Assembly (NCBI GenBank): GCA_016125225.1
Contig: WGME01000009.1
Location: forward strand, 310,001 to 374,000
Length of the DNA: 64,000 nucleotides
Origin: a bacterium
GTDB taxonomy: Bacteria; Planctomycetota; Planctomycetia; Planctomycetales; Planctomycetaceae
Direction: 5' to 3'
The notes beneath the pieces were generated by a model. The model had not been told where the DNA came from and made no database searches. It saw only the letters and a program-made list of their open reading frames with translations. A program made the translations under genes and the position numbers. Position 1 is the stretch's first letter. Every line of letters starts with the position of its first letter. Of the stretch, positions 26,688-55,147 are shown one piece after another.

Positions 26688-26762
26688 CGGGATGTAGCTC
26701 AGCTTGGCTAGAGCGCCTGCTTTGGGAGCAGGAAGTCGCAGGTTCGAATCCTGTCATCCCGA
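26688..26762 (+). tRNA. tRNA-Pro (UGG)
   Basis: 75 nt that fold as a tRNA. The acceptor stem CGGGATG pairs perfectly with CATCCCG and the discriminator is A. The D arm is TAGCTCAGCTTGGCTAGAGC. The anticodon stem CCTGC/GCAGG encloses TTTGGGA with anticodon TGG (26723-26725). The T arm carries GGTTCGAATCC. CCA is not encoded. A terminator-like hairpin follows at 26777. The gene is overlapped by the 3' end of a recombinase gene on the other strand and is the probable integration site of the element to its right. Confidence 0.97.
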
Positions 26763-30587: not shown

Positions 30588-32345
30588 TCAACGGAAACTC
30601 TGCGAACACACCATGACCAGGCATCCCGACATCACCAGCAGTAAGATCACCGATCCGATCACGACATTCGCCATCGCCGTGAATCGCTGCCACCATCCCG
30701 GCCGCTGTCCCAAATTGCGTTCCTCGAAATACCGGATGCGATTCGTCCAGATCGGCGGAACGCCCGGTGTGAACGTGAGGACGGTCCGATCCGAAAGCGC
30801 CAGGACTTCATCAGGCTTGAGCAGCTTCCGGCCTTGCTGCGCCCAGTTCGCGTTCTCGTTCGACGACGAGGTGTGGCTGAGACTTTCTTTTGAGCTTTGC
30901 TGCGAACGTCCGGTGCTCGTTCCGCCGCTGTGGACCACGATGGTTTCTTCACCCAGCCGGTTGCTCACGTACTCCGCCGTCGGCAGGTCATTGATTCCGA
31001 AAAACACCTGACTGACGTTGCTGAGCAGCGTCTGGTCCTGCCCGTCCGGGAAACACTTCCTGAGTTGTGAAACCGACTGAAAGTAAAACTGAAGCCGGAC
31101 TCCGTAGCCCCGGTACTTGTCCACCGCGTCGTCGAGCGCCTCCATGTGGCCGAGGCTCGCCGCCTCGTCCAGCACAAAATGCACCTTGTTCTGTTCCTGC
31201 AATCCTCCTCGCACGACCGCTCGTAGCAGTGATCCGATCCACATCCGCAGCAGTGGCGATTGCGCTCGCTGATGTTCCGGCGGGAGGATCAGGTACACCG
31301 TCGTCTTTCCCCGCCGCAGATCGTCCGGGTTGAAGCTGCTCGTCTTGGTGCTGTCGCTGACGGCCAGCGTGTCGAGGAACCGCAGGAAGCGGCTTGTCGT
31401 GGTGAGCGTCGAGCCACGCTCCTTGCCCTCGAAATGGGTGAGCTGGCTTCCCATGCGTGCCAGCATTCCGTCCCAGGCGTCGGAAGAGCACATCAGCTTG
31501 ATGGCCATTTCCAATTTGTCGGGACTGGATAGCAGTGTCCGCACGGTTTGCAGCGACCGGTCATTCGGTTCGCCGTAGTACACAACCAGGGCGATCAAGG
31601 CCGCGATCCACGCCTCGGCGGAATCGACCCAATGCGGGTCCCTTTCCTGTCCGGTGCGAATCACCAGCGCCTCGGCCAGGTCGCGACATTCATCAATCGC
31701 CGTCGGAGAATCCTTGCTGATGAAGTCCAACGGGTTGAATGTCTGCGGAGCCTGCGAAACCAATTTGAATGGATCGAGCACGACAATCTGGTGGCCGAAC
31801 ATCTTCCGCCTGTGTTCGGCAGTGATCTGAGAGTTTTCACCCTTGAAATCTACGATGACGGCAGATTCGTCAGCTGCCAGCAGGAAGGGAATGACGGCCG
31901 ACACACCCTTGCCCACACCCGTCGGTGCGAAGACCGCTATATGTACCGCCTTCGGCAATCTCACCAGCGGCGGGGGCAGCTTCGATTTGCGCCCGACGCG
32001 AATCGACGCCAGGAACTGTTCACAGGCTTCCTTCGACGGCACCCAGGAGTTGAATAGCTGTCGCATTGCCTTCTGAAATGACGGCTTTGCCCAGCCGCCG
32101 ACGCGACCGATGATGAGGCCCGAATGGGCGTCGAGCATTCCCGCTGCTTGCAGGTCAGCCACATCGGCCCAGCGTGCTGTTCCGAAGGCCGTCAGTGCCT
32201 GGAATCCCCGTTTGCCAAAGAGCATGAACAGCAACAGGGCGATCCCGATATAGCCGATTCCGCCGAGCTTCAGCCCAAGGATCAGCAGGCTCCAGAGGCC
32301 GGCGACCACGCTCAGGATCAACATGAGTCGAGATAATCTGTACAT
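30588..32345 (-). CDS. Type IV coupling protein (VirD4/TraG/TraD-like ATPase)
   Basis: 585 aa from ATG 32345, chosen because AGGGAGA lies just before it; starts at 32390 (overlapping the upstream small gene, TGATG) and 32519 are less supported. Two N-terminal membrane segments (LMLILSVVAGLWSLLILGLK and GGIGYIGIALLLFML) are followed by Walker A AVFAPTGVGKGVSAVIPFLL, Walker B VHFVLDEAASLGHM and QSVSQLRKCFPDGQDQTLL. The last segment has a further hydrophobic C-terminal stretch. It would bring relaxase-bound DNA to a secretion channel. No VirB4 or pore genes are in the window, so the channel may be provided elsewhere. Confidence 0.92.
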   Translation of the reverse strand: MYRLSRLMLILSVVAGLWSLLILGLKLGGIGYIGIALLLFMLFGKRGFQALTAFGTARWADVADLQAAGMLDAHSGLIIGRVGGWAKPSFQKAMRQLFNSWVPSKEACEQFLASIRVGRKSKLPPPLVRLPKAVHIAVFAPTGVGKGVSAVIPFLLAADESAVIVDFKGENSQITAEHRRKMFGHQIVVLDPFKLVSQAPQTFNPLDFISKDSPTAIDECRDLAEALVIRTGQERDPHWVDSAEAWIAALIALVVYYGEPNDRSLQTVRTLLSSPDKLEMAIKLMCSSDAWDGMLARMGSQLTHFEGKERGSTLTTTSRFLRFLDTLAVSDSTKTSSFNPDDLRRGKTTVYLILPPEHQRAQSPLLRMWIGSLLRAVVRGGLQEQNKVHFVLDEAASLGHMEALDDAVDKYRGYGVRLQFYFQSVSQLRKCFPDGQDQTLLSNVSQVFFGINDLPTAEYVSNRLGEETIVVHSGGTSTGRSQQSSKESLSHTSSSNENANWAQQGRKLLKPDEVLALSDRTVLTFTPGVPPIWTNRIRYFEERNLGQRPGWWQRFTAMANVVIGSVILLLVMSGCLVMVCSQSFR

Positions 32346-32389
32346 AGAAAGTCTCCCTTGCTGTTCACGGGCGCGAGCCGCCCGTTCCA

Positions 32390-32512
32390 TCAACGCTTTG
32401 TGTTCATCCAGTCCCACACTGCGATACCAGCCGACCAAACGATCCCGCCGACGACGAAGAAAACTGTCGCAGCGCCGATTTGCCGCAACCAAAAATCCAA
32501 CTCCGGATTCAT
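32390..32512 (-). CDS. 40-aa single-span membrane protein
   Basis: Reads MNPELDFWLRQIGAATVFFV followed by VGGIVWSAGIAVWDWMNTKR. One hydrophobic segment of about 20 residues with a Trp-rich C-terminus. Its TGA overlaps a downstream in-frame ATG of the coupling protein (TGATG). It was hidden because a longer frame of the coupling protein covers the same bases in another phase. The Shine-Dalgarno is weak (GGGGTG). Probably a small conjugation accessory. Confidence 0.5.
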   Translation of the reverse strand: MNPELDFWLRQIGAATVFFVVGGIVWSAGIAVWDWMNTKR

Positions 32513-32583
32513 GTGACACCCCATATCAGGAGATGAGTTCCCCGCTAGGATGGGCGGGGATTCCGATCCCCGCCCAATGCGAT

Positions 32584-37480: not shown

Positions 37481-38002
37481 TTACCGATGAAGGAACGCGG
37501 GGGCTTTCTTGCTCAGCCATTCCTTGAGGGCGGTATGTGACTCGAATTCCGCGACCTCGATGCTGTCGATGGTCGGTTCGGTCTCTCCCACCTGGTTGAC
37601 TTCCGCTTCCGTCATCTCGCGGACCCATAGCAGCCGGTGCCGCTGAAACCCTGCATGGGTGAGCGTGACGGAACCGTCCTTGAGAGGCTTGTCCAGGTTG
37701 CTGCCTTTGATGAGCACCAGATACACGAGATCGCCGGAGAATTTCAGCAGAAGCCCCTCGGAAGGATTGAACTTCCAGGTTCCGAGCCAGCTATACGGAA
37801 ACCAGATGCTGTTGCCGTCCCGGAAGCGGAATTCCACCGCTGCCGACTGATCGCGGATGCCACGGAGATAGCCAAACGCTTGGCACGCCGCCTCTGTTCC
37901 CTCGACATCCTTTTCCTTTTCTCGTGGCGGTTCCCTGGACTCCAGAATCCCCTTGAGTCCTCTGGGAGGCAATCGGTCCTGGTGTGGTGTGTCATCCCGC
38001 AT
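37481..38002 (-). CDS. Hypothetical protein overlapping the relaxase end
   Basis: 173 aa, ATG 38002 with AGGGGA upstream, overlapping the relaxase stop by 11 bases. A charged, probably disordered N-terminal 30 residues is followed by a beta-rich core (AVEFRFRDGNSIWFPYSWLGTWKFNPSEGLLLKFSG) and a C-terminal helical tail (HTALKEWLSKKAPAF). No family is recognised with certainty. The coupled position suggests a relaxase accessory. Confidence 0.65.
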   Translation of the reverse strand: MRDDTPHQDRLPPRGLKGILESREPPREKEKDVEGTEAACQAFGYLRGIRDQSAAVEFRFRDGNSIWFPYSWLGTWKFNPSEGLLLKFSGDLVYLVLIKGSNLDKPLKDGSVTLTHAGFQRHRLLWVREMTEAEVNQVGETEPTIDSIEVAEFESHTALKEWLSKKAPAFLHR

Positions 38003-40688
38003 GGTCCAATCCCCTGTCGTTCAGGTGCTCATTGCTGATTCCCGGCTGCGAGGAATTCTGCCGTCCATCAAACACAGTAAAGCCACGCCCGAATCCCAGA
38101 CGCTTCATCAGCCGGGCGGGCAAGTCCGGGTTCTGCTGCGGAGTCTCAGAAATCTCCGTCGCCGACAATGGCTCGTCGGCGCGGCTGACCGCCTTGATAA
38201 GCTCGGTCCTGTCGTCCGTGTAAATCTGCGCCTGCTCCCGCCCGCGCGTCAGCGCCACATAGGCCGTCCGCTGGTAGGTCGCCGGGAGCGATTCGCTCGA
38301 TACCCCGACGAAGACCTTATCCACCGTCACGCCTTGGCTGGCGTGACTGGTGACAACGTAGCCGTGGCTCAGATGACCGAAATCCCGGTCAATGACCCAG
38401 CCGTGATCGACGATGAGGTCGCCCCGTTTCGTAAATCCCTCGACGGTCAGAAGCGACCCGTTGCTTAGGCGGTGTTTGCCGTCTTTGGTCTTGCCGCCCG
38501 CCGTGAGGCGAACCCGGTCGCCGACGGCCAGGGGCAACTGCATCGGGCGGTACGCCTCGAACCGATTGGCCAGTTCCGTGGGCAGTTTCATTCCGTCTTC
38601 CACAATCAGGCGGGAACCTTTGGTGTGGCCCGGCGCATTCTGATGGAATTGGAGCAGGTCGCCGGTCTCGTATTCAGTCGCATCCGCTTTTTGGGCGTCG
38701 GTCAGGTGTTTCGGCACCCATACTTGAACCGTTCGTTCATGATCGAGCTTGCCCTGACTCTTCAGGCCAGTGCGAATTGCCAACGTAATCTGTGCTCCTT
38801 CCGCGTGCGTGGGCGAGACAACGAGCGCTGACTTCGGCTTGCCGTCCTTCTTTGTTTCAGCGGCGGCGGAGAGATACGCAGCGGCCAGTTGCTCGTACCG
38901 GACTTCATCAGGAACCTGTTTGATCCAGCCGAGCTTATCAAGCTCCTCGAATGCCTGACCCGTTCGTCCTTCGCTCAGAGCTTGTGCCGCCTTCTTGTAA
39001 TCGCCCTTCTGGCGAAGAATCTCTGTGACCTGCGCGACGCGCAGCCCCGCTTTTTCCTCCAGAAGTTTCAGCGGCTCACCCGCCGTCACGCTCCGGTGCT
39101 GGCGGCGATCACCGACCAGAATCACCCGCGCCCCGACCCCTTCGGCCACATCGAACACCCGGAGCATATCCCGCGTGCCAAGCTGGCTCGCCTCATCGAG
39201 GAGGATGACGCCGCCCTTGGCCGATGCCTGCATTTCCTTGTCCTTGAGGAACCGCGCCACCGTGTCTGCGCTCGCAAACCCTGCTTCCTCGCGCAACACT
39301 TCCCGGCTGGCCTTCACCGACTGGGCCAGAGCCACGACGGGTTTCCCGGCTTCCGCCAAGGCTTCGCCAATCTCCTGTTCGAGCGTCGTCTTCCCCGTTC
39401 CAGCGACACCCCGAATAATCATCACCCGGTCACGCGAACCCAGTACATGGGCAACCGCCGCCTTCTGTCCTTCGTTAAACCAGTCGCGGGAGCAGGGACG
39501 CTCAGGACTGCCGAGTGGCCGGCAACGCCCTCGCCCGAGCCGTGCGAAGTCGATCAGCTTCGACTCCAGGGCCAGCATTTCCTTCGTCGTCGCCATCTTG
39601 CGACCGGCGACATCGCTGCGGATCAAGGGACGCTCGCGCATCTCGCGGGTCACGTCCTCAACCGTCACGGCACCGAGTCCACGTTTCAAGGCTTCGGTGA
39701 CGAGCTTGCGTTCCGGCATCACCGCTTCACGCACGAAGCTGTGTTCAAGGGCGTGATCGACCGCCAGTGCTTCGCCATGCCGAGATCTGAGTGCAACATG
39801 GTCGCGACGGTGGACCGTCGCCAGAGCCGTGCGCTCCTGGTCGGTGAGGCGAGTGTTCCACAACTTCCGCAGCGATTCCCAGCTCAGCGCGGACTCTTTC
39901 TTCTCCCGCGTCTCGGCTCCAAGTAGGTCTTTGCGCTTCGGGTCGATAATGCCCTTTTCCTCAGCCACTTTTTCGATCAGCGCCGTGCGCCGCGAGAACC
40001 GTCCCAGCACATCCTTCGGAATGCCAGCAATCTCGAAATCGTCGCGCTTCCGCTCGACACCAAAACCCAAGTCCTGAAGCCTGTTCGCCAGCCGCACCCG
40101 GAATGCCGCCTGAAAATACGGGGAATCACGCTTGATCTCTGCAAACTGACCAGCCTTCCATCGTTTTTCTTCTTCGTCAAAGGTCGTGTTAAACACGAAC
40201 ACATGGGCATGCAATTGCGGGTCGGGCAGGCCGTCCACGGGCCGCGAGGTGGTGTGGATGAATTCCGCCCAGACCATGTTGCCGGTGCCCCGGTCTCCAT
40301 CCATGCCGTTCCTGCGAACGCGCGTTTTCATTTCCGCTTCGATCTCGCGCATCGTCTCATCGACCGACGCTCGGAACGCCTCCAGGATGTCCTGGTCGCC
40401 GCTCATCGCGTACAGCAGCGAAACGCTCTTGGGGACGCTGAAGGTAAAATCGTAACCGACTCTCCGCTCCGCCCGCGTTCGCACCGTCAGCGGTTCTCCG
40501 GTCCGTGGGTCGAGATTGTCGCACAGCCGTTCAAAGGAGAATTTGTCTACCATCCCTTCCAGCCCGAGCCGGGTCGCGCCCTTGCCGCCCCAGCAGCCAA
40601 CGATTTCCTGGCCTTCGCTGTAATAGTCCGCCGTCGCGTAGTAACGCTTGGCGGAGGAGGCGCTGTTCTGTTGCGTGATGCGTATCAT
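37992..40688 (-). CDS. TrwC/TraI-type (MobF) conjugative relaxase-helicase
   Basis: 898 aa. The N-terminal TrwC domain has the catalytic tyrosine region SSAKRYYATADYYSEG and the metal-binding PDPQLHAHVFVFN. The second half is a RecD/TraI-like helicase with Walker A GVAGTGKTTLEQEIG (near residue 450), ILLDEASQLGTRD, LVGDRRQHRSV, and the C-terminal HGYVVTSHASQGVTVDKVFV and TAYVALTRGREQ motifs. It nicks one strand at oriT and unwinds it for transfer through the coupling protein. The region between its start and the AlpA gene is the likely place for oriT. A truncated paralogue lies at 46429-47544. Confidence 0.95.
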   Translation of the reverse strand: MIRITQQNSASSAKRYYATADYYSEGQEIVGCWGGKGATRLGLEGMVDKFSFERLCDNLDPRTGEPLTVRTRAERRVGYDFTFSVPKSVSLLYAMSGDQDILEAFRASVDETMREIEAEMKTRVRRNGMDGDRGTGNMVWAEFIHTTSRPVDGLPDPQLHAHVFVFNTTFDEEEKRWKAGQFAEIKRDSPYFQAAFRVRLANRLQDLGFGVERKRDDFEIAGIPKDVLGRFSRRTALIEKVAEEKGIIDPKRKDLLGAETREKKESALSWESLRKLWNTRLTDQERTALATVHRRDHVALRSRHGEALAVDHALEHSFVREAVMPERKLVTEALKRGLGAVTVEDVTREMRERPLIRSDVAGRKMATTKEMLALESKLIDFARLGRGRCRPLGSPERPCSRDWFNEGQKAAVAHVLGSRDRVMIIRGVAGTGKTTLEQEIGEALAEAGKPVVALAQSVKASREVLREEAGFASADTVARFLKDKEMQASAKGGVILLDEASQLGTRDMLRVFDVAEGVGARVILVGDRRQHRSVTAGEPLKLLEEKAGLRVAQVTEILRQKGDYKKAAQALSEGRTGQAFEELDKLGWIKQVPDEVRYEQLAAAYLSAAAETKKDGKPKSALVVSPTHAEGAQITLAIRTGLKSQGKLDHERTVQVWVPKHLTDAQKADATEYETGDLLQFHQNAPGHTKGSRLIVEDGMKLPTELANRFEAYRPMQLPLAVGDRVRLTAGGKTKDGKHRLSNGSLLTVEGFTKRGDLIVDHGWVIDRDFGHLSHGYVVTSHASQGVTVDKVFVGVSSESLPATYQRTAYVALTRGREQAQIYTDDRTELIKAVSRADEPLSATEISETPQQNPDLPARLMKRLGFGRGFTVFDGRQNSSQPGISNEHLNDRGLDHAG

Positions 40689-42756: not shown

Positions 42757-42850
42757 GCCACTTCATCACTCAACTCACTGGCACCGACGGTTAGTTGGGC
42801 TCGGTAAGCCATGTCGCTCCCTTCCCGGCATGAGCCAGCCCCTACAGTGG

Positions 42851-43032
42851 CCTTCATTCACGGCACTGTGATCCCGCCGCCGGGGCCGGTAAAGCTGCCA
42901 AGGCCGCTTTCCGCACGCGGAAGCCTTCGGCCTTTCGCTTGACCGTCGCTGAAGCTCCCGGACTGAGGCGGGCTCTTGGAGCGTGCCGTAAGGCCCCGTG
43001 GTGGGGCTGAAACTCAAGAGAAGGAGATCAAC
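42851..43032 (+). ncRNA. Structured leader RNA, copy 1 (radC-motif-like)
   Basis: Runs up to the start of the gene at 43033. It aligns with a second leader at 49778-49966, sharing CCTTCA-(CACGGCAC)-ATC-(GCCGCCGGG), and in the 3' half CTCTTG-GAGC-GGCCCC-GGGGC-GAAAC-CAAGAG. Helices: AAGGCC/GGCCTT (42900-42934) around a CCGC/GCGG stem, the closing stem CTCTTG (42973-42978)/CAAGAG (43015-43020), and GCCCC/GGGGC (42993-43007). The ribosome site AAGGAGA follows at once. From memory it resembles the published radC-motif RNAs that precede DNA-processing genes of mobile elements; this was not checked. The likely job is to control translation of the gene. Confidence 0.65.
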
Positions 43033-43293
43033 ATGTCACAACCGGCACACAAAATACGCAGCGGCGTCCTGCAAGTCACGATCTGGAGAAACCACGGCGA
43101 GAAGGGCAACTGGTACAGCGTCATTCCCAGTCGCGGCTACAAACAGGAAGACGCCTGGAAGGAAACCGACAGCCTCGGCTTCGATGACCTTCTGACGATG
43201 GCCAAGCTGTTCGACCTGGCCCACACCTGGATCATGCACCAGCAGCAGGCCGACGCCAAGGGCCGCAAGGAAGCGGCGAAGGCTGCCGCCTGA
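43033..43293 (+). CDS. Small hypothetical element protein
   Basis: 86 aa. MSQPAHKIRSGVLQVTIWRNHGEKGNWYSVIPSRGYKQEDAWKETDSLGFDDLLTMAKL: a compact beta-rich start (VTIWRN, WYSVIPSR) that resembles a common plasmid/ICE protein of unknown function found with single-stranded-DNA related genes. ATG 43033 follows AAGGAGA. It is headed by structured leader RNA copy 1. The longer frame to 42976 is not real. Function not known. Confidence 0.75.
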   Translation: MSQPAHKIRSGVLQVTIWRNHGEKGNWYSVIPSRGYKQEDAWKETDSLGFDDLLTMAKLFDLAHTWIMHQQQADAKGRKEAAKAAA

Positions 43294-46428: not shown

Positions 46429-47544
46429 CTAGGGCCTTAATGCCGCCATCTTGCGACCGGCCACGTCGCTCCAGATCAACGGACGATGGCCCAGCTCGCG
46501 CGTAACGCTCTCAATCGTGACCGTGCCTATCCCGTGTTTCAATGCCTCGGTAACGAGCTTGCGCTCCGGCACCATCGACGCTCCTGCGAAACAATGGGCA
46601 ATGGCAAGATCGACCGCCACTGTTTCTCCGTTGACCTCCCGCGCGCAAGGCGTCTCGCGGCGGTAAACCGACGCCAACAATTGCCGTTCCTGCGCGGTCA
46701 ATCGGGTTTTCCATTCTTTCCGCAAAGCCTCGAAGCCCTTCGGAATCCCGGTCCATTTTTCGCGCGTCTTGGGCCCCAGTGCCGCTTTCCACTCCGGGTG
46801 CGTGATACCCCGGTCACGGGCCACCCTCTCGATCCGCTCTGTCCGCCGGGAAAACCGTTTGAGAACATCTGCCGGTATCCCGGCAATCTCGAAATCCTTC
46901 CGCTTCCGCTGCACCCTGAAGCCCAGGTCCTGGAGCTTGTTCGCAACGCGAACGCGGAACGCTGCCTCGAAGTACGGGGCATCGGTCTTAATGTCCCGGA
47001 ATCGACCAGCCTTCCAGCGGCTCTCCTGTTCATCCCAGGTCATGTTGAACACAAAGACGTAAGCCTGTAGCTGAGGATCGCACAGCCCCCCAACCGGCGA
47101 CGAAGTCCTATGGATAAACTCTGCCCAGACCATGTTGCCGGTTGTTCGCGCAGTGTTCTGGCGTGCCTTGCGCACACGTGCCTTCATCTCTCCTTCCATC
47201 TCGCACATGCTTTCACCGACCGCTGCACGGAACACGTCCAGAATGGCCCAATCGCCACTCATCCCGTCAAGCAACGACACCGACTTCGACACCGAGAATC
47301 TGAAAGTGTAACCTACCGTCCGGTTTGAGCGAGTTCGCACCGTGACGGGAGTTCCGGTTCTGGGGTCCTGGTTGTCGCACAATCGGCGGAAGGAGAGCGG
47401 GTCCACCGTTCCTTTCAGGCCAAGCCGACACGCGCCCTTGCCACCCCAGAAGCCGATTATTCCCCGTCCGTCACGGTAATATCCGGCCGCTGCATAACAC
47501 CGCTTGGCGTACTCGGCACTACTCTGTTCGCTGATCCGAAGCAT
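46429..47544 (-). CDS. Truncated TrwC relaxase domain (paralogue, helicase lost)
   Basis: 371 aa. It aligns almost end to end with the first ~370 residues of the relaxase at 37992-40688: SSAEYAKRCYAAAGYYRDGR, LCDPQLQAYVFVFNMTWDE, RVRVANKLQDLGFRVQRKRKDF. It then stops at VAGRKMAALRP where the other protein goes on into the helicase. The HxH motif is altered (LQAYVFVF instead of LHAHVFVF), so metal binding and nicking are probably lost. It is either a decaying copy or a stand-alone relaxase-like DNA binder. Sequence identity to the intact copy looks high but not recent. Confidence 0.8.
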   Translation of the reverse strand: MLRISEQSSAEYAKRCYAAAGYYRDGRGIIGFWGGKGACRLGLKGTVDPLSFRRLCDNQDPRTGTPVTVRTRSNRTVGYTFRFSVSKSVSLLDGMSGDWAILDVFRAAVGESMCEMEGEMKARVRKARQNTARTTGNMVWAEFIHRTSSPVGGLCDPQLQAYVFVFNMTWDEQESRWKAGRFRDIKTDAPYFEAAFRVRVANKLQDLGFRVQRKRKDFEIAGIPADVLKRFSRRTERIERVARDRGITHPEWKAALGPKTREKWTGIPKGFEALRKEWKTRLTAQERQLLASVYRRETPCAREVNGETVAVDLAIAHCFAGASMVPERKLVTEALKHGIGTVTIESVTRELGHRPLIWSDVAGRKMAALRP

Positions 47545-49197: not shown

Positions 49198-49388
49198 GTA
49201 CCTTGCCAACAGACCGGCAAATACGAGGCGGCAGCCGGGCCGAATGCCGGGAACCAGGATTAGCTGATGGTTCCTGACGATGGCACGGAAACCGCCGGAT
49301 TGGCGACAACCCTCATTGTTTTCATTCGACCCAGGTATCCTGCCTGAGCCTCAAGACAACGCAACCCCTCAACCCGAAGGAGACCAAC

Positions 49389-49706
49389 ATGCAGTACAAG
49401 ACAATCGTTCTCGAACTCCTGCAACAACAAACGGAGATGCACGACCAGCTTCGCAAGGAGCGGAAGCTGCTCCCGGCGCTGGAGTTCTACGCCAGGGAAC
49501 TGAAGACCAGCCACGAAGCCTGGAAGGAAACTCTCTCCCAGAGCAACCCTGCCAGCAATCTGAGCCAGATCGCCAGCGAAGCAATGGAGATGGCAGTCAA
49601 GGAACTGGAGGATCGTTTGCAGACCGCATCGCACGACAACGATCAGGAAGCACTCTCCCTCGACGCGGCAATGGCCTTCGTCCGCAATCGCACGTCTCGC
49701 GGCTAA
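49389..49706 (+). CDS. Small helical protein (105 aa)
   Basis: ATG 49389 sits 6 nt after GAAGGAGA, a strong ribosome site. MQYKTIVLELLQQQTEMHDQLRKERKLLPALEFYARELKTSHEAWKETLSQSNPASNLSQIASEAMEMAVKELEDRL is a mostly helical, coiled-coil-rich protein. It lies out of frame inside a long open stretch that can be joined to the methylase-helicase gene. I take this small gene as the real one and the overlapping frame as incidental. Function unknown; a similar protein is common in plasmid modules. Confidence 0.75.
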   Translation: MQYKTIVLELLQQQTEMHDQLRKERKLLPALEFYARELKTSHEAWKETLSQSNPASNLSQIASEAMEMAVKELEDRLQTASHDNDQEALSLDAAMAFVRNRTSRG

Positions 49707-49777
49707 AGGCGTCGCAGCGAACGCTGTTTGATTCCCTTTCCGACGACCCATCTCCCGCCGAACCGGTCCCGCCAGGG

Positions 49778-49966
49778 CCTTCACATGACGGCACGCTAAT
49801 CAGCCCGCCGGGCCATGCAAGCGAAAAATCGGTTCCCCCTGAAGGTCTCCCCCAATTTTCCGCTGGCACGGTCGCTACGCGAGCGGAGCCCCGGTCTGGG
49901 GCTGATTCTCTTGCGAGCCGTCAGGCCCCAGTTGCGGGGCCGGAAACGCAAGAGGGAGACCACGAC
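49778..49966 (+). ncRNA. Structured leader RNA, copy 2 (radC-motif-like)
   Basis: Homologous to 42851-43032 along its whole length. Helices: outer GGTCTCCC (49844-49851)/GGGAGACC (49954-49961), CGCT/AGCG hairpin, AGCCCC/GGGGCT hairpin (near 49887-49903), CTCTTGCG (49908-49915)/CGCAAGAG (49947-49954), and GGCCCC/GGGGCC (49924-49941). The 3' strand of the outer stem, GGGAGACC, includes the ribosome site of GTG 49967, so a folded outer stem would hide it. This predicts control at translation of the methylase-helicase. From memory it resembles radC-motif RNAs; not checked. Confidence 0.7.
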
Positions 49967-52900
49967 GTGCAAGGAACACAACTCAGCTTTCAGCTAGACC
50001 GACCGCCACCCAGCCGATTTACGGCTCCACCGGAACAACCCAGGAAGCCAGCGGTTCAGCCGCCGCTTTCCGCACCGGCAACTATTTCCAGCGGTGAGAA
50101 ATCCAAAGCACGCGACATCATCGCCGCCATCCGCACGCTGAAGAACATCGAGAACGAAAATCGGCGAGCGACAGATGACGAACGGCCAGCGCTCGCCCGC
50201 TTCGGCGGCTTCGGTGCAGTGGCCCTGTCCATTTTTCCCGATCCCGTGACCGGCAGATACAAGGACACCGGCTGGCAAGCACTCGGTGAGGAACTGCAAT
50301 CGCTGCTGACGCCGCAGGAATACGACAGCGCCAAACGGACCACGTTCAACGCCTTCTACACGTCACCCACCGTCATCGGCGGAATTCATGATGCCATCAG
50401 CCGCTTGGGCGTGCCCGAATCGGCGACCATCCTGGAGCCAGGCTGCGGCACAGGCAATTTCATGAGCCAGGGGAAGCCGGGCAACCGCTTCATCGGCGTC
50501 GAACTCGACTCCATCTCCGGCCGGATCGCCCGTGCCCTGCATCCCGAACACGACATCCGCATCGAAAGTTTCCGCGACACGACGCTGCCTGAGAATCGGA
50601 TTGACGCCGTGATCGGCAACGTGCCGTTTGCCGATTTGAAGCTCGACCATCACGGCCAGAAGTTTTCCCTGCACGACTATTTCTTCGCCAAGTCCGTGGA
50701 CGCATTGAAGCCCGGCGGAGTGCTGGCACTCGTGACTTCGCACTTCACCCTCGACAAACAAAATGCCGCGATCCGCGAATACCTGGCCTCGAAAGCCGAC
50801 TTCGTGGGAGCGATCCGGCTGCCATCGGATGCGTTCAAGCGAGAAGGAACCGCCGTGGTGACCGACATCGTTTTTCTTCGGAAGCGTGACCGGGGCGAAC
50901 CTGCCCGCCACGTCGATCCCGACTGGCTGGGCATCGCACCGCTGGAGATCGATGGCGCAGAGGTTCCGGTAAACCGCTACTTCCTGAACCATCCCGAAAT
51001 GGTGCTGGGCAACTGGTCCCGCAAGGACACGCTGTACGGCGGGGAAGGCTTTAGCGTTACGAGCAACGGCGACCTGAGCCAGAAGCTCCGGGAAGCCGTC
51101 AGCCGCCTACCGCGATTTGAAGGCATTCGGGCGACGACGGAGCAGAAGGAAGAAAAAGCACCAGCGTTTGTCCCACCGCCACCCGAGCGGCATATCGGCG
51201 AAGGCAGCTTTTTCATCGGCGATGACCGCATCATCTACCAATCCGAAGGCGGACAGGGCAGCCCCGTTGTCTACGGCGGTACAACGCTGAAGGCGGATGG
51301 AACGCTCACCGGAAAGCGCCTGGCTGCCCTCTTGGGGCTACGTGACCGTGCCCGCCGCGTACTGCAATCACAGAACGAAGGCTGGCCCGAAGCAAACCGT
51401 GAGACCGCACGTCGCGAACTGAATTTGGCTTACGACCGTTTCGTGACCACCTACGGACCGATCAACAAGACCACCTTCGGCGCGACCACCGATGGGAGCG
51501 CGATCCGGCGGATGCCCAATCTCGTCAAGTTCCGCGAAGACCCGGACGCGATGCTGGTCATGTCGCTGGAGGACTACGACGAGGTTACGGGGAAAGGAAC
51601 CAAAGCCGCCATCATGACGAGGGACGTGGTGGGGAAAACGCCGCCCATCACCCACGTCCGCAGCGCCGAGGAAGGGTTGCTGGTATCTCTCAACCAAAAA
51701 GGAGCGGTGGACCTGCCGTTCATCGGAACGCTTTACGGCAAGCAGAAAGCAGAAATCGTCGCCGAGTTGGGCGACCTGATCTATCCTGACCCGGAAACCA
51801 GAACCTGGCAGACCGCCGACGCCTATCTCTCCGGGAATGTCCGCGCCAAACTCGCCACCGCTGAACGCGCCGGTTCTCCCTTTGTCCGCAACGTCAACGC
51901 CCTGCGCACCGTGCAACCTGAGGACGTTCTGCCCGGCGACATCGACGCCAATCTGGGCGCACCGTGGATACCGGAGAGCGACATCCAGGCATTTGCGGCT
52001 GATCTATTCCACGTCGAGCCGTCTGCGGTCCCGGTTGCTCATCTGAAAAAAGATGCCGTCTGGAGCCTCGACGCCAGCTACGCCGCCAAGGCATCCGTCG
52101 CCGCCACTTCCGAGTATGGCACTTCTCGCGCCAACGGCACCGGGCTGCTGGAACTGGCCCTCAACATGAAATCGCCGACCATCTACGACACCATCCATGA
52201 TGGCGACCGCGAGGAGCGCGTCGTCAACCAGGAAGCGACGATGGCCGCCCGCGAGAAGCAGAAGCTCATTAAAGAGCGATTCCGGTCCTGGGTGTTCAGC
52301 GATCCTGACCGCACCGAGCGGTTGGTACGAATTTACAACGACACCTACAACAATTTGCGTCCCCGCCTGTTCGACGGTGGACACCTCGACTTCCCCGGCA
52401 TGAACCAGACGCTATCTCTGCGGCCCCACCAGAAGGATGCCGTGTGGCGGGGCATGAGCAGCGGCAACACGCTGCTGGCCCACGTTGTCGGCGCAGGCAA
52501 GACGTTCACGATGGCCGCAACGGGCATGAAGATGAAGGAAGCCGGTCTCATCAAAAAGCCAATGTACGTTGTCCCCAACCACCTGCTGGAGCAATTCTCC
52601 CGCGAGTTCATGCAGCTTTACCCGAATGCCCGGCTGCTGGTCGCCTCCAAGGAAGACCTGACCAAGGAGCGCCGCAAGATGCTGACCGCCAAGATCGCCA
52701 GCGGCGAATGGGACGGGATCATTGTCACGCATTCATCCTTCGAGCGGATCGGCATGTCGCGGGATTACCAGGAGAAGTTCCTCACCGAGCAGATCGCAGA
52801 ATATGACGAACTGCTACGGGAGCACGCCGCCGACAGGGGAGCCAACCGCAACCTCATCAAGACCATCGAGAAACAGAAGGCAGCCAGATGCGAACGCCTG

Positions 52901-55147
52901 AAGGATTTGCTCGCCGAGAAAAAGAAAGACGATGGCTTGGTGTTCGATGAACTCGGGGTCGATCACGTTTTCATTGACGAGGCACACTACTTCAAGAACC
53001 TGGAGACGCCGACCAAGATGGAGCGTGTCGCCGGAATTCAGACCGGAGGCAGCGAACGCGCTTTCGACGTATTCATGAAGGCCCGCTACCTCGACGAACA
53101 GCACGCCGGTCACGGCGTCACCTTTGCGACGGGAACGCCGATCAGCAACACGATGGTCGAGATGTACACGATGCAGCGTTTTCTCGATCCGAAGGGACTT
53201 CGGGAACGCGGGCTGGAGCATTTCGACGCTTGGGCCGCTACGTTCGGCGAAGTCGTGGACACAATGGAAATCTCACCGGACGGCGCGGGGCTGCGTCCAC
53301 GCAGCCGATTTGCGAAATTCACCAACCTGCCGGAACTCCAGCAGATGTTCCGTCAGTTCTCCGACGTGCAGACAGCCGACATGCTGAACCTGCCGCGTCC
53401 GCGTCTGAAAGGCGGCAAGCCCACCGTGGTTGCCTGCCCCATGTCCGAGGAACAGCACGAGCTGCAACAGGAGCTGGTGGAACGCTACGAACGGCTGCGG
53501 TCTCAGAAGGTGGACCCGCGTGTCGATAACGCACTGGCCATCACCACCGACGGACGCAAGCTCGCCACTGATGCCAGAATGTTGTCGCCGACCGCACCGG
53601 ATTTCCCGGAATCGAAGGTCAACCGGCTCGTTGAAAACGTCGTGGACAATTGGAGGAGGACAACTCCCACACGCGGAACGCAGATGATTTTCGCCGACAT
53701 GGGCGTCAACCCAACGGCGTGGGGTTACTCTCCTTACGAGGAAATCATCGAGAAGCTGGTTGCCCACGGCATCCCCCGCGACCAGATCGCCGCCATCGGC
53801 GACGCCGAATCCGATCCCAAGAAACAGGCCCTGTTCGAGAAGGTACGGCAAGGGTCCGTCCGCGTACTGATCGGCAGCACCCAGAAAATGGGCACCGGCA
53901 CCAACGTCCAGAAACGCCTGGTTGCCTTGCATCACCTGGATGCACCTTGGAAGCCCGCCGAGGTCGAACAACGCGACGGCCGCATCCTGCGTCAGGGCAA
54001 CCAGAATGAGGAAGTGGCGATTTACCGCTACGTCACCGAAGGTTCCTTCGATGCCTACATGTGGCAGGCGCTGGAGACGAAGGCCAGGTTTATCAGTCAG
54101 GTCATGTCAGGCGACAACGCCGCCCGCCGGGCCGAGGACATCGGCAGCCAGGAACTTTCCTACGCCGAGGTCAAAGCAATTGCGTCCGGCAACCCGGCCG
54201 TGCTGACGCTCGCCGAGGCCGACGCCGAGTTGCAGCGTCTCAATCTCCTCAAGAAGAACCACATGGACGAGCAATACGTCGCCCGTCGCAGTGTTCGCGA
54301 TTTGCCGGGGACCATCAGCAGCCTGGGCGAACGACTGTCAAAACTGACCGCAGACGAAGCCACCGCCACCGACCACGCCGCCGATCCGGTCACCATCGGG
54401 AAGTACGCGCGGGCACGCGAGGACGTACCCAATGCCTTGGCAAGTCAGCTCGACCAATTGCCAAGCAACGTCCGCGAGACGACCCGCGTGCCGGTCGGCG
54501 TTTACCGGGGCCTACGGTTTGGACTTATCCTTCGTCCGCAATTCCCGCCGGATGTGTACCTGGAAGGTGCAATCACGCGCCATTCCACGCTGTCACGCGA
54601 CCACCAGGGGCCGCGTGCCGTGCTAAACGCCCTCGAACGTCTGGCCACTGGCTACGGCTCCGAGTGCGTGCGCGTCCGGCAGGATCTGGCCATCGCCGAA
54701 TCGCAACTGCGTGATTACCGGGGGCGATTGGGCAGGCCATTCGCACACGACGCCTACCTCTTGGAATTGACCAGCCTGCGCGACCAGCTCAAGGCCGGTT
54801 TATCCGCCACGGCTCATGACGCCAGCAATGAAAACGGTCCCACCGTTTCCGAACTGGCCGACAGGGTCAAGGCACTGAAAGCCGCCAACACCATCGAGGC
54901 CACGCCACAGCGGGTTCAGTCGAGGCAAGCAACCGCCGAGGAACCGATTACCGCTCGCATCCGCAAGCGGCAGGAAGCGAATTCCGCATCGGAACATCCC
55001 GTCGAGAGCGATGTTTCGCCGGAACCGTCAGCCCTCCAGCCGCCGCCGGCAGCCGGGGATGATTCATCTGGCAGGCAGCCGATGACGTTTCAGGAGCGCA
55101 TTGCAATGGAACGCCAACGGAACGACCGCGAGCCGAGCCTGCCGTAA
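49967..55147 (+). CDS. Giant N6-methyltransferase / SNF2-like helicase
   Basis: 1726 aa from GTG 49967. The reading frame is open from 49280, but that stretch covers another gene (49389-49706) and the leader RNA; GTG has a ribosome site (GGGAGA, 7-nt gap) and its distance to the RNA copy matches that of the gene at 43033. Residues about 100-330 form an N6-methylase: motif I ILEPGCGTGNF (near 155), catalytic GNVPF (near 217; the canonical NPPY is replaced by NVPF). The helicase has Walker A HVVGAGKTFTMAA (near 839), DEAH VFIDEAHYFKN (near 1002), FATGTPISNTMVEMY and a helicase C domain (near 1240-1345). A long charged C-terminus ends the protein. It belongs to the large methylase-helicase proteins of plasmids and phages (DarB-like), which protect incoming element DNA from restriction. 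Confidence 0.9.
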   Translation: MQGTQLSFQLDRPPPSRFTAPPEQPRKPAVQPPLSAPATISSGEKSKARDIIAAIRTLKNIENENRRATDDERPALARFGGFGAVALSIFPDPVTGRYKDTGWQALGEELQSLLTPQEYDSAKRTTFNAFYTSPTVIGGIHDAISRLGVPESATILEPGCGTGNFMSQGKPGNRFIGVELDSISGRIARALHPEHDIRIESFRDTTLPENRIDAVIGNVPFADLKLDHHGQKFSLHDYFFAKSVDALKPGGVLALVTSHFTLDKQNAAIREYLASKADFVGAIRLPSDAFKREGTAVVTDIVFLRKRDRGEPARHVDPDWLGIAPLEIDGAEVPVNRYFLNHPEMVLGNWSRKDTLYGGEGFSVTSNGDLSQKLREAVSRLPRFEGIRATTEQKEEKAPAFVPPPPERHIGEGSFFIGDDRIIYQSEGGQGSPVVYGGTTLKADGTLTGKRLAALLGLRDRARRVLQSQNEGWPEANRETARRELNLAYDRFVTTYGPINKTTFGATTDGSAIRRMPNLVKFREDPDAMLVMSLEDYDEVTGKGTKAAIMTRDVVGKTPPITHVRSAEEGLLVSLNQKGAVDLPFIGTLYGKQKAEIVAELGDLIYPDPETRTWQTADAYLSGNVRAKLATAERAGSPFVRNVNALRTVQPEDVLPGDIDANLGAPWIPESDIQAFAADLFHVEPSAVPVAHLKKDAVWSLDASYAAKASVAATSEYGTSRANGTGLLELALNMKSPTIYDTIHDGDREERVVNQEATMAAREKQKLIKERFRSWVFSDPDRTERLVRIYNDTYNNLRPRLFDGGHLDFPGMNQTLSLRPHQKDAVWRGMSSGNTLLAHVVGAGKTFTMAATGMKMKEAGLIKKPMYVVPNHLLEQFSREFMQLYPNARLLVASKEDLTKERRKMLTAKIASGEWDGIIVTHSSFERIGMSRDYQEKFLTEQIAEYDELLREHAADRGANRNLIKTIEKQKAARCERLKDLLAEKKKDDGLVFDELGVDHVFIDEAHYFKNLETPTKMERVAGIQTGGSERAFDVFMKARYLDEQHAGHGVTFATGTPISNTMVEMYTMQRFLDPKGLRERGLEHFDAWAATFGEVVDTMEISPDGAGLRPRSRFAKFTNLPELQQMFRQFSDVQTADMLNLPRPRLKGGKPTVVACPMSEEQHELQQELVERYERLRSQKVDPRVDNALAITTDGRKLATDARMLSPTAPDFPESKVNRLVENVVDNWRRTTPTRGTQMIFADMGVNPTAWGYSPYEEIIEKLVAHGIPRDQIAAIGDAESDPKKQALFEKVRQGSVRVLIGSTQKMGTGTNVQKRLVALHHLDAPWKPAEVEQRDGRILRQGNQNEEVAIYRYVTEGSFDAYMWQALETKARFISQVMSGDNAARRAEDIGSQELSYAEVKAIASGNPAVLTLAEADAELQRLNLLKKNHMDEQYVARRSVRDLPGTISSLGERLSKLTADEATATDHAADPVTIGKYARAREDVPNALASQLDQLPSNVRETTRVPVGVYRGLRFGLILRPQFPPDVYLEGAITRHSTLSRDHQGPRAVLNALERLATGYGSECVRVRQDLAIAESQLRDYRGRLGRPFAHDAYLLELTSLRDQLKAGLSATAHDASNENGPTVSELADRVKALKAANTIEATPQRVQSRQATAEEPITARIRKRQEANSASEHPVESDVSPEPSALQPPPAAGDDSSGRQPMTFQERIAMERQRNDREPSLP

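Follow-up and report, generated by a model that had tools for sequence, protein, structure and literature searches.

Leaders of a conserved structured family, about 170 bases long and lying just 5′ of gene starts, occur twice in the window (the whole 64,000-nucleotide stretch of Planctomycetaceae DNA that was analysed). Evolution has shaped the main domain of these leaders, formed by helices P1-P3, for folding on the antisense strand, both in Planctomycetes and in alphaproteobacterial relatives. A second part, hairpin P4, behaves like an RNA helix, nearly every leader stands before a Shine-Dalgarno sequence (SD), and the copy before the giant gene is inserted in frame. Taken together, these properties point to a single-stranded-DNA (ssDNA) promoter on the template strand, followed by a 5′UTR hairpin. 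We see about an even chance that the leader is such a promoter, similar to Frpo of plasmid F, placed before genes that act on entry.

The initial annotation had described two homologous leaders, at 42851-43032 and 49778-49966. A covariance model, R1 (168 positions, 34 pairs), was built from six source leaders, with both window copies left out of the set. It detects the two of them, and the copies align along their length; their places are confirmed, and their bounds are better drawn as listed below. The sequence blocks named at the time are all present where they had been placed in copies 1 and 2, respectively: CTCTTG at 42973 and 49908, CAAGAG at 43015 and 49949, GCCCC at 42993 and 49925, GGGGC at 43003 and 49936, and GAAAC at 43009 and 49943. 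The 5′ half of the fold (P1, P2, and the P3 arm) had been missed. The parts of the two leaders are as follows.

42848-43032, + strand: copy 1, whole leader; R1 match at 42848-43013 (82.7 bits, E 2e-16), then SD and ATG at 43033
42860-42866, + strand: copy 1, P1 5′ arm ACGGCAC, partner GTGCCGT at 42983-42989; helix 1, covarying
42870-42878, + strand: copy 1, P2 5′ arm GATCCCGCC, partner GGCGGG at 42967-42972; helix 2, 8 of 8 pairs covary
42886-42945, + strand: copy 1, P3 arm with apical module of type A (CCGGTAAAGC...GCTTGACCG); helices 4-5
42973-43020, + strand: copy 1, P5, CTCTTG/CAAGAG, enclosing the P1 3′ arm and P4; weak support outside the giant group
42992-43008, + strand: copy 1, P4 hairpin GGCCCC...GGGGCT; the mRNA-like part (family-wide, 68 G·U to 5 A·C cells in P4)
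49776-49966, + strand: copy 2, whole leader; R1 match at 49774-49947 (94 bits, E 4e-19), then GTG at 49967
49787-49792, + strand: copy 2, P1 5′ arm GACGGC, partner GCCGTC at 49917-49922; helix 1
49798-49806, + strand: copy 2, P2 5′ arm AATCAGCCC, partner GGGCTGATT at 49899-49907; helix 2
49812-49871, + strand: copy 2, P3 arm with apical module of type B (CGGTTCCCCCTGAAGGTCTCCCCC); the type B stem has a conserved C·A position
49908-49954, + strand: copy 2, P5, CTCTTGCG/CGCAAGAG, adjoining the SD GGGAG at 49954-49958
49924-49941, + strand: copy 2, P4 hairpin GGCCCC...GGGGCC; helix 6

The extent of the family was established with several models. A first nucleotide profile, made from six leaders (both from the window, plus four that precede homologues of the giant gene described below), detected about 20 leaders in related elements. 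R1 yielded 146 matches in 61 of 298 genomes of the window's class, with nine or fewer per genome and five in the window's own genome; a refitted model found few outside that class, in 8 of 392 genomes across the phylum. None of the 4227 models of Rfam 15 matched either window copy, even at E ≤ 10, and no Rfam match was obtained at seven Planctomycete loci or in the alphaproteobacterial relatives. A BLAST comparison of the window copies with plasmids gave a single short match, and two matches on viral contigs were judged on inspection to be due to chance. Among the papers searched, none describes the leader family. The family thus lies outside Rfam, and a possible earlier partial sighting is the Rhodopirellula-1 or the Rhizobiales-1 motif. 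Both were marked "RNA? ambiguous" when reported (PMC2864571) and are not in Rfam; their taxa (Planctomycetes with Proteobacteria, and Rhizobiales) overlap those of our leaders, the comparison being one of descriptions only.

The order of parts on the sense strand is P1, P2, P2b, P3, apical module, P3′, P2b′, P2′, P1′, P4, AAC, SD, and start codon. The consensus arms are GGCAC for P1, TAAAGCCGC for P2, CCGGG for P2b, CCGG..CAAGC for P3, and AGGCCgCGATGGtCGcGGCCGG for the P4 hairpin. There are two main apical modules, A (CCAAGGCCGCTTTCC..GGAAGCCTTCGGCCTTT) and B (AAAATCGGTTCCCCCTGAAGGTCTCCCCCAATTTT); leaders that are homologous in the rest of their length can carry either one, whichever family the downstream gene belongs to. 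Compensatory changes among homologues, which had been proposed as the check on the fold, were looked for and are present. In an alignment of 131 sequences, 90.8% of cells were paired, a percentage biased upward by fitting of the alignment to the model, and double changes were seen in 33 of the 34 pairs. Double-change cells numbered 523, compared to 122 in shuffled and 66-100 in slid controls, an excess far beyond that bias. The leader is therefore a conserved structured element.

The strand on which this structure is maintained can be read from imperfect pairs. RNA helices tolerate G·U and do not tolerate A·C, and an A·C on the sense strand is a G·T on the antisense strand. Within P1-P3, there were 78 A·C and 30 G·U cells (27 and 3, respectively, in P2 alone), whereas P4 contained 68 G·U and 5 A·C cells. 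When each 70%-identity cluster was counted once, the numbers were 51 A·C to 24 G·U in P1-P3, and 5 A·C to 38 G·U in P4. Mutation bias is not the cause of the A·C excess, because the A/G and C/T rates in unpaired columns were nearly equal (0.120 and 0.111). In type B modules, the C·A position was kept in 23 of 29 sequences, and T·G was never seen there. Shuffle-corrected folds of single sequences favored the antisense strand 93 to 31 for P1-P3 (p = 9e-9) and neither strand for P4. Consensus folds agreed: −20.5 kcal/mol for the antisense against −9.5 for the sense strand of Planctomycete P1-P3, −38.4 against −20.3 kcal/mol for the alphaproteobacterial region before P4, and no antisense preference for P4. 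Taken individually, sequences were too noisy for a call on polarity, including both window copies folded as DNA and stretches of the F leading region; the F comparison used presumed Frpo sites, one sequence each, and the tRNA control was very small. The A·C excess and the stronger antisense folds show that the P1-P3 domain was selected on the antisense strand, while P4 was probably selected on the mRNA. The structured leader RNA of the initial annotation thus survives as P4, and the large P1-P3 domain has to be assigned to the opposite strand.

A P4-based pattern was run over GTDB genomes and returned 48 stretches, most of them in Planctomycetes or in records carrying c0 (one of the families of leader-preceded genes, see below), and some in Alphaproteobacteria. 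In Afifella and Aurantimonas the leader precedes ArdC; weaker R1 matches in the same bacterial order precede DUF736 genes. BLAST with the leader of Rhizobium etli plasmid p42a retrieved 682 plasmid records, mostly from Agrobacterium, Rhizobium, and Bradyrhizobium, where the leader usually stands before DUF736. This rhizobial relative is about 240 nt long (locus L252, 11780-12056), stands before DUF736 throughout Ti, Ri, and symbiosis plasmids, and belongs to no Rfam family; a literature search for an earlier description of it found nothing. The alphaproteobacterial leaders are likely homologous to the Planctomycete ones, to judge from P4, which both have in a corresponding position, from model scores, which are weak, and from the set of genes they have in common.

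The rhizobial plasmids also allow a prediction of transfer direction. In p42a and in plasmids of Chelativorans and Roseibium the gene order is a giant DEAD/DEAH helicase (in Chelativorans, located beyond the stretch read), ParB, an ArdC-type zincin, leader-DUF736, reversed traG-traD-traC, oriT, and traA; the genes from the helicase to DUF736 point at oriT, and pRi1724 has the same leading genes. The gap between traC and traA in these three rhizobial plasmids contains an inverted repeat followed on the minus strand by TGCGCCCT with the motif GCGCCCT, which we take to be the nic core of RSF1010/Ti-type (MOBQ) oriTs. Once cut after nic, the minus strand would move leftwards, DUF736 going first and ArdC, ParB, and the helicase following, so that the transferred strand is the template of these genes. 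By the nic motif, then, the antisense (template) strand is the transferred strand in the three plasmids. The leading region of F is arranged likewise, its genes for methylase, antirestriction, SSB (ssb), ParB-like, and PsiB (psiB) proteins pointing at oriT.

The initial annotation had tied the leaders to element genes acting during or after entry, and the genes behind them bear this out. In nearly all leaders, an SD and a start codon follow P4 within 14-26 nt, and the downstream proteins belong to more than ten families. The largest are c0 (QVRDREGxKGFWTRIGxAWPHADGKGFNIQ; 59 members), c1 (PAHKIRxGVLQVTIWRN; 25 members, including the gene behind copy 1), and a giant methylase-helicase (13 members, including the gene behind copy 2); a ParB-like protein is also among them. 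An AF2 model of c1 has a beta-beta-beta-alpha arrangement (pLDDT 82), and its comparison with the PDB gave nothing below E 0.2, the matches to Pur-alpha-like folds being non-significant; for c0, the predicted structure is a low-confidence model. TrwC was present in 48 of 48 leader-bearing genomes tested. The relevant genes of the window are as follows.

30588-32516: coupling protein, found alongside TrwC
37992-40688, − strand: TrwC (MOBF) relaxase-helicase (Pfam TrwC, 3.7e-71), divergent from the leader genes
43033-43293, + strand: 86-aa c1-family gene behind copy 1; no Pfam or NCBIfam match
46429-47544, − strand: second, shorter gene with a TrwC relaxase domain, between the two leaders
49280-55147, + strand: giant DarB-like open reading frame, long form; N-terminal motif SHVSRLKASQRTLFD at 49688-49732, upstream of the leader
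49967-55147, + strand: giant gene, short form; start served by the SD behind the leader

The second TrwC gene contains one TAG when aligned to full-length TrwC. A direct repeat that would make the tRNA at 26688 an end of the element was not found. Three further leaders of the window's genome lie on contigs C20, C28, and C29, each of which also carries trwC; this genome therefore holds more elements of the kind.

With 1546 bits, the PHROG "DarB-like antirestriction" is matched by the giant protein, whose leaders differ from those of other genes in their relation to the reading frame. Leaders are open in frame with the following start codon in 11 of 11 cases for the giant group, 10 of 62 for c0, and 2 of 15 for c1. 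The distance from P4 to the start is 39, 42, or 45 in the giant group, a multiple of three in 10 of 10; that from P2 is a multiple of three in 10 of 11, although it varies between 147 and 171. The phase is mixed in the remaining groups. Most giant-group members encode, in this same frame and ahead of the leader, the motif SHxxRLKxSRxQxSLFD. Substitutions in the giant leaders were distributed 94/137/112 over the three codon positions; there being no third-position excess, the peptide encoded by the leader is not conserved. The open frame and the upstream motif place the leader within the open reading frame, after the N-terminal motif and ahead of the main domains, so that there would be a long product containing it and a short one starting behind it. 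The initial annotation had named translation from upstream as evidence that would refute its switch; for copy 2 this is partly borne out by the frame, open through all 11 giant-gene leaders, and by the upstream motif. Leaders of the other genes are outside the translated frame. Some giant homologues lack a leader at this place. The RQxSLFD of the giant N terminus resembles the sliding-clamp binding motif (QLxLF), and several short forms start with a similar xQLxLxF stretch right behind the leader.

The initial annotation had further proposed that an outer stem, GGTCTCCC (49844) with GGGAGACC (49954), hides the SD of the giant gene. Copy 2 has this pair and copy 1 does not, and GGTCTCC is a fixed part of an apical module. 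Pairing of modules with their own SD was no better overall than with swapped SDs (p = 0.61); only the giant group gave a signal, a weak one (p = 0.027), and the stem was rejected as a feature of the family. A different helix, P5, joins the stretch after P2′ to the flank of the SD. Among giant-group leaders it beat swapped pairings in each of 10 tested (10 of 10, p = 0.002); elsewhere it was weak.

According to the promoter reading, P1-P2-P3 would be an ssDNA hairpin on the template (antisense) strand; upon transfer, the incoming antisense strand would fold on arrival and provide a duplex acting as a promoter, as Frpo does. Transcription would start near the foot of the hairpin, and the transcript would begin with or near P4, a short 5′UTR hairpin, with SD and start codon coming next. 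DarB-like, ParB-like, ArdC, and DUF736 proteins and several small proteins could in this way be made before synthesis of the second strand. For the giant gene, ordinary transcription would give the long protein, and transcription from the leader the short one. We infer promoter activity, the start of the transcript, and the existence of two giant products. A sigma-70 site was sought at both window copies and not found; across leaders, the best window for a −10 box (TATAAT) averages 2.9 of 6 matches and that for a −35 box (TTGACA), TTGccC, 3.9 of 6, with no conserved pair. The main weakness of the promoter reading is the direction of the leader genes in the Planctomycete elements, which point away from trwC: an oriT in the gap between them would make the sense strand the transferred one. 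An oriT was sought in the trwC-c0 gap, and conserved TGTC/TGGCA repeats with no assignable nic were seen. The repeats (TGTC...TGGCA(C)AG) are conserved in the stretch of ~110-180 bp that separates trwC from the c0 leader, for example at loci L106, L138, and L154, and are possibly an oriT or a trwC operator. For the Planctomycete element we only infer the direction of transfer.

The closest known counterparts are the Frpo/ssi sites of F and ColIb-P9 (PMC9849209, PMC11541004). They place a long hairpin in the transferred template strand and precede early genes (such as ssb, ParB-like, psiB, antirestriction) that face oriT, as predicted for our leaders in the three rhizobial plasmids, and like our leaders they occur in more than one copy per element; p42a and F share this logic of gene order. 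When Frpo1/2 are deleted, the leading genes of F are no longer expressed early (PMC9849209), and leading-region anti-defence islands hold many Frpo-like promoters (PMC11541004). The leaders share with Frpo/ssi the hairpin on the mRNA-template strand and lack a conserved pair of −35 and −10 boxes within it. They further differ in sequence and fold, in the fixed P4 hairpin with an SD at its foot, in the in-frame location within one gene, and in their occurrence mainly in Planctomycetes and Alphaproteobacteria. Rather tentatively, we propose a second, unrelated class of ssDNA promoters, read otherwise than through the usual sigma-70 boxes and common to rhizobial Ti/Ri/Sym plasmids and the integrative elements of Planctomycetes. 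Such promoters would switch on an establishment and anti-restriction regulon from the incoming strand and, acting inside the giant open reading frame, yield a recipient-specific short protein. The STAXI motif (RF01728) is structured and repeated as well, and its neighbors include ssb, antirestriction, and integrase genes; a role as single-stranded DNA was considered by its authors too (PMC2864571); it consists of tandem pseudoknots in Enterobacteriales, and the leaders have no Rfam match. Integron attC sites were dropped, since the leaders have no R boxes and do not form arrays.

The main rival is an mRNA switch, i.e., an ordinary cis-acting leader in which P1-P3 binds a ligand or a protein and P4/P5 exposes or hides the SD, putting a regulon under one signal or one protein of the element. 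Such a leader would account for the end of the structure 14-26 nt before the start codon with the SD in between, for the G·U pairs that P4 accepts as RNA helices do, for the specificity with which P5 of giant-group leaders pairs with the flank of the SD, and for the use of one leader by different genes; translational riboswitches and ribosomal-protein-type leaders likewise end beside the SD of several genes. It does not agree with the antisense preference of P1-P3 in two phyla, with the location of the giant-gene copy inside a translated frame, where ribosomes would unfold it, or with the non-specific pairing of SD and module; moreover, unlike translational riboswitches, the leaders have a main domain selected on the opposite strand and are without known ligand or regulator. 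We consider an mRNA switch doubtful; a point against the promoter reading is nevertheless that P4/P5, closely linked to the SD, could also indicate translational control. Co-regulation of element genes on entry, as proposed in the initial annotation, is kept as the most likely role, its means being probably an ssDNA promoter instead of an RNA switch.

The polarity data would also be explained by a folded ssDNA site of another kind, either an ssi that primes the second strand or a place where a DNA-binding or site-specific protein docks. That an element has several copies, all oriented alike, would suit such a site, and the two exchangeable apical modules could be protein sites, but by itself it leaves the placement right before SD and start codon, as well as the RNA-like P4, unexplained, and we regard it as unlikely. 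Antisense polarity of P1-P3 is also what a cis-encoded antisense RNA would produce, transcribed from the opposite strand, folding as RNA, and silencing the leader as FinP does traJ; the low antisense wobble tolerance of P2 (27 of ~1000 cells) and the lack of a terminating T-run upstream of the leaders make this very unlikely. The radC motif is a cis-element of mobile DNA-processing genes in Proteobacteria, and the leaders have similar neighbors (antirestriction and DNA-processing genes), a likeness of gene context alone. It is classed as cis-regulatory (RF01754; PMC2864571). Its model is silent at both copies at E ≤ 10, 0 of 59 relatives scored over the cut-off, and no match was obtained in 6 and 101 further genomes, where the controls of the 101-genome search were silent too. 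Membership of the radC family, which the initial annotation had suggested, is thus rejected for the window, and a divergent radC-type RNA is barely conceivable; the many homologues retrieved by the custom model, taken with the silence of the radC model, had been named beforehand as the outcome expected of a new class.

F and ColIb-type plasmids are, to our knowledge, the only ones for which the expression of protective genes from incoming, not yet double-stranded conjugative DNA has been worked out in detail. An element that is widespread, defined in structure, and located before DarB-like, ParB-like, ArdC, and DUF736 genes in two phyla would provide a general handle on such expression. The leaders would predict which small genes, such as c0 and c1, encode establishment or anti-defence factors, and would allow the direction of transfer to be read from sequence. 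The comparison of G·U with A·C counts per helix is a cheap means to discriminate between folds at the DNA and RNA levels and can be used on other "ambiguous" motifs. At four loci (L093, L113, L124, and L143) an element has three or four leaders that all point the same way and precede small genes, a different one in each case, and these genes are a ready list of candidate establishment genes. A Peptidase_C14 caspase-domain gene (locus L218, 2334-3314) lies downstream of the window on the same contig.
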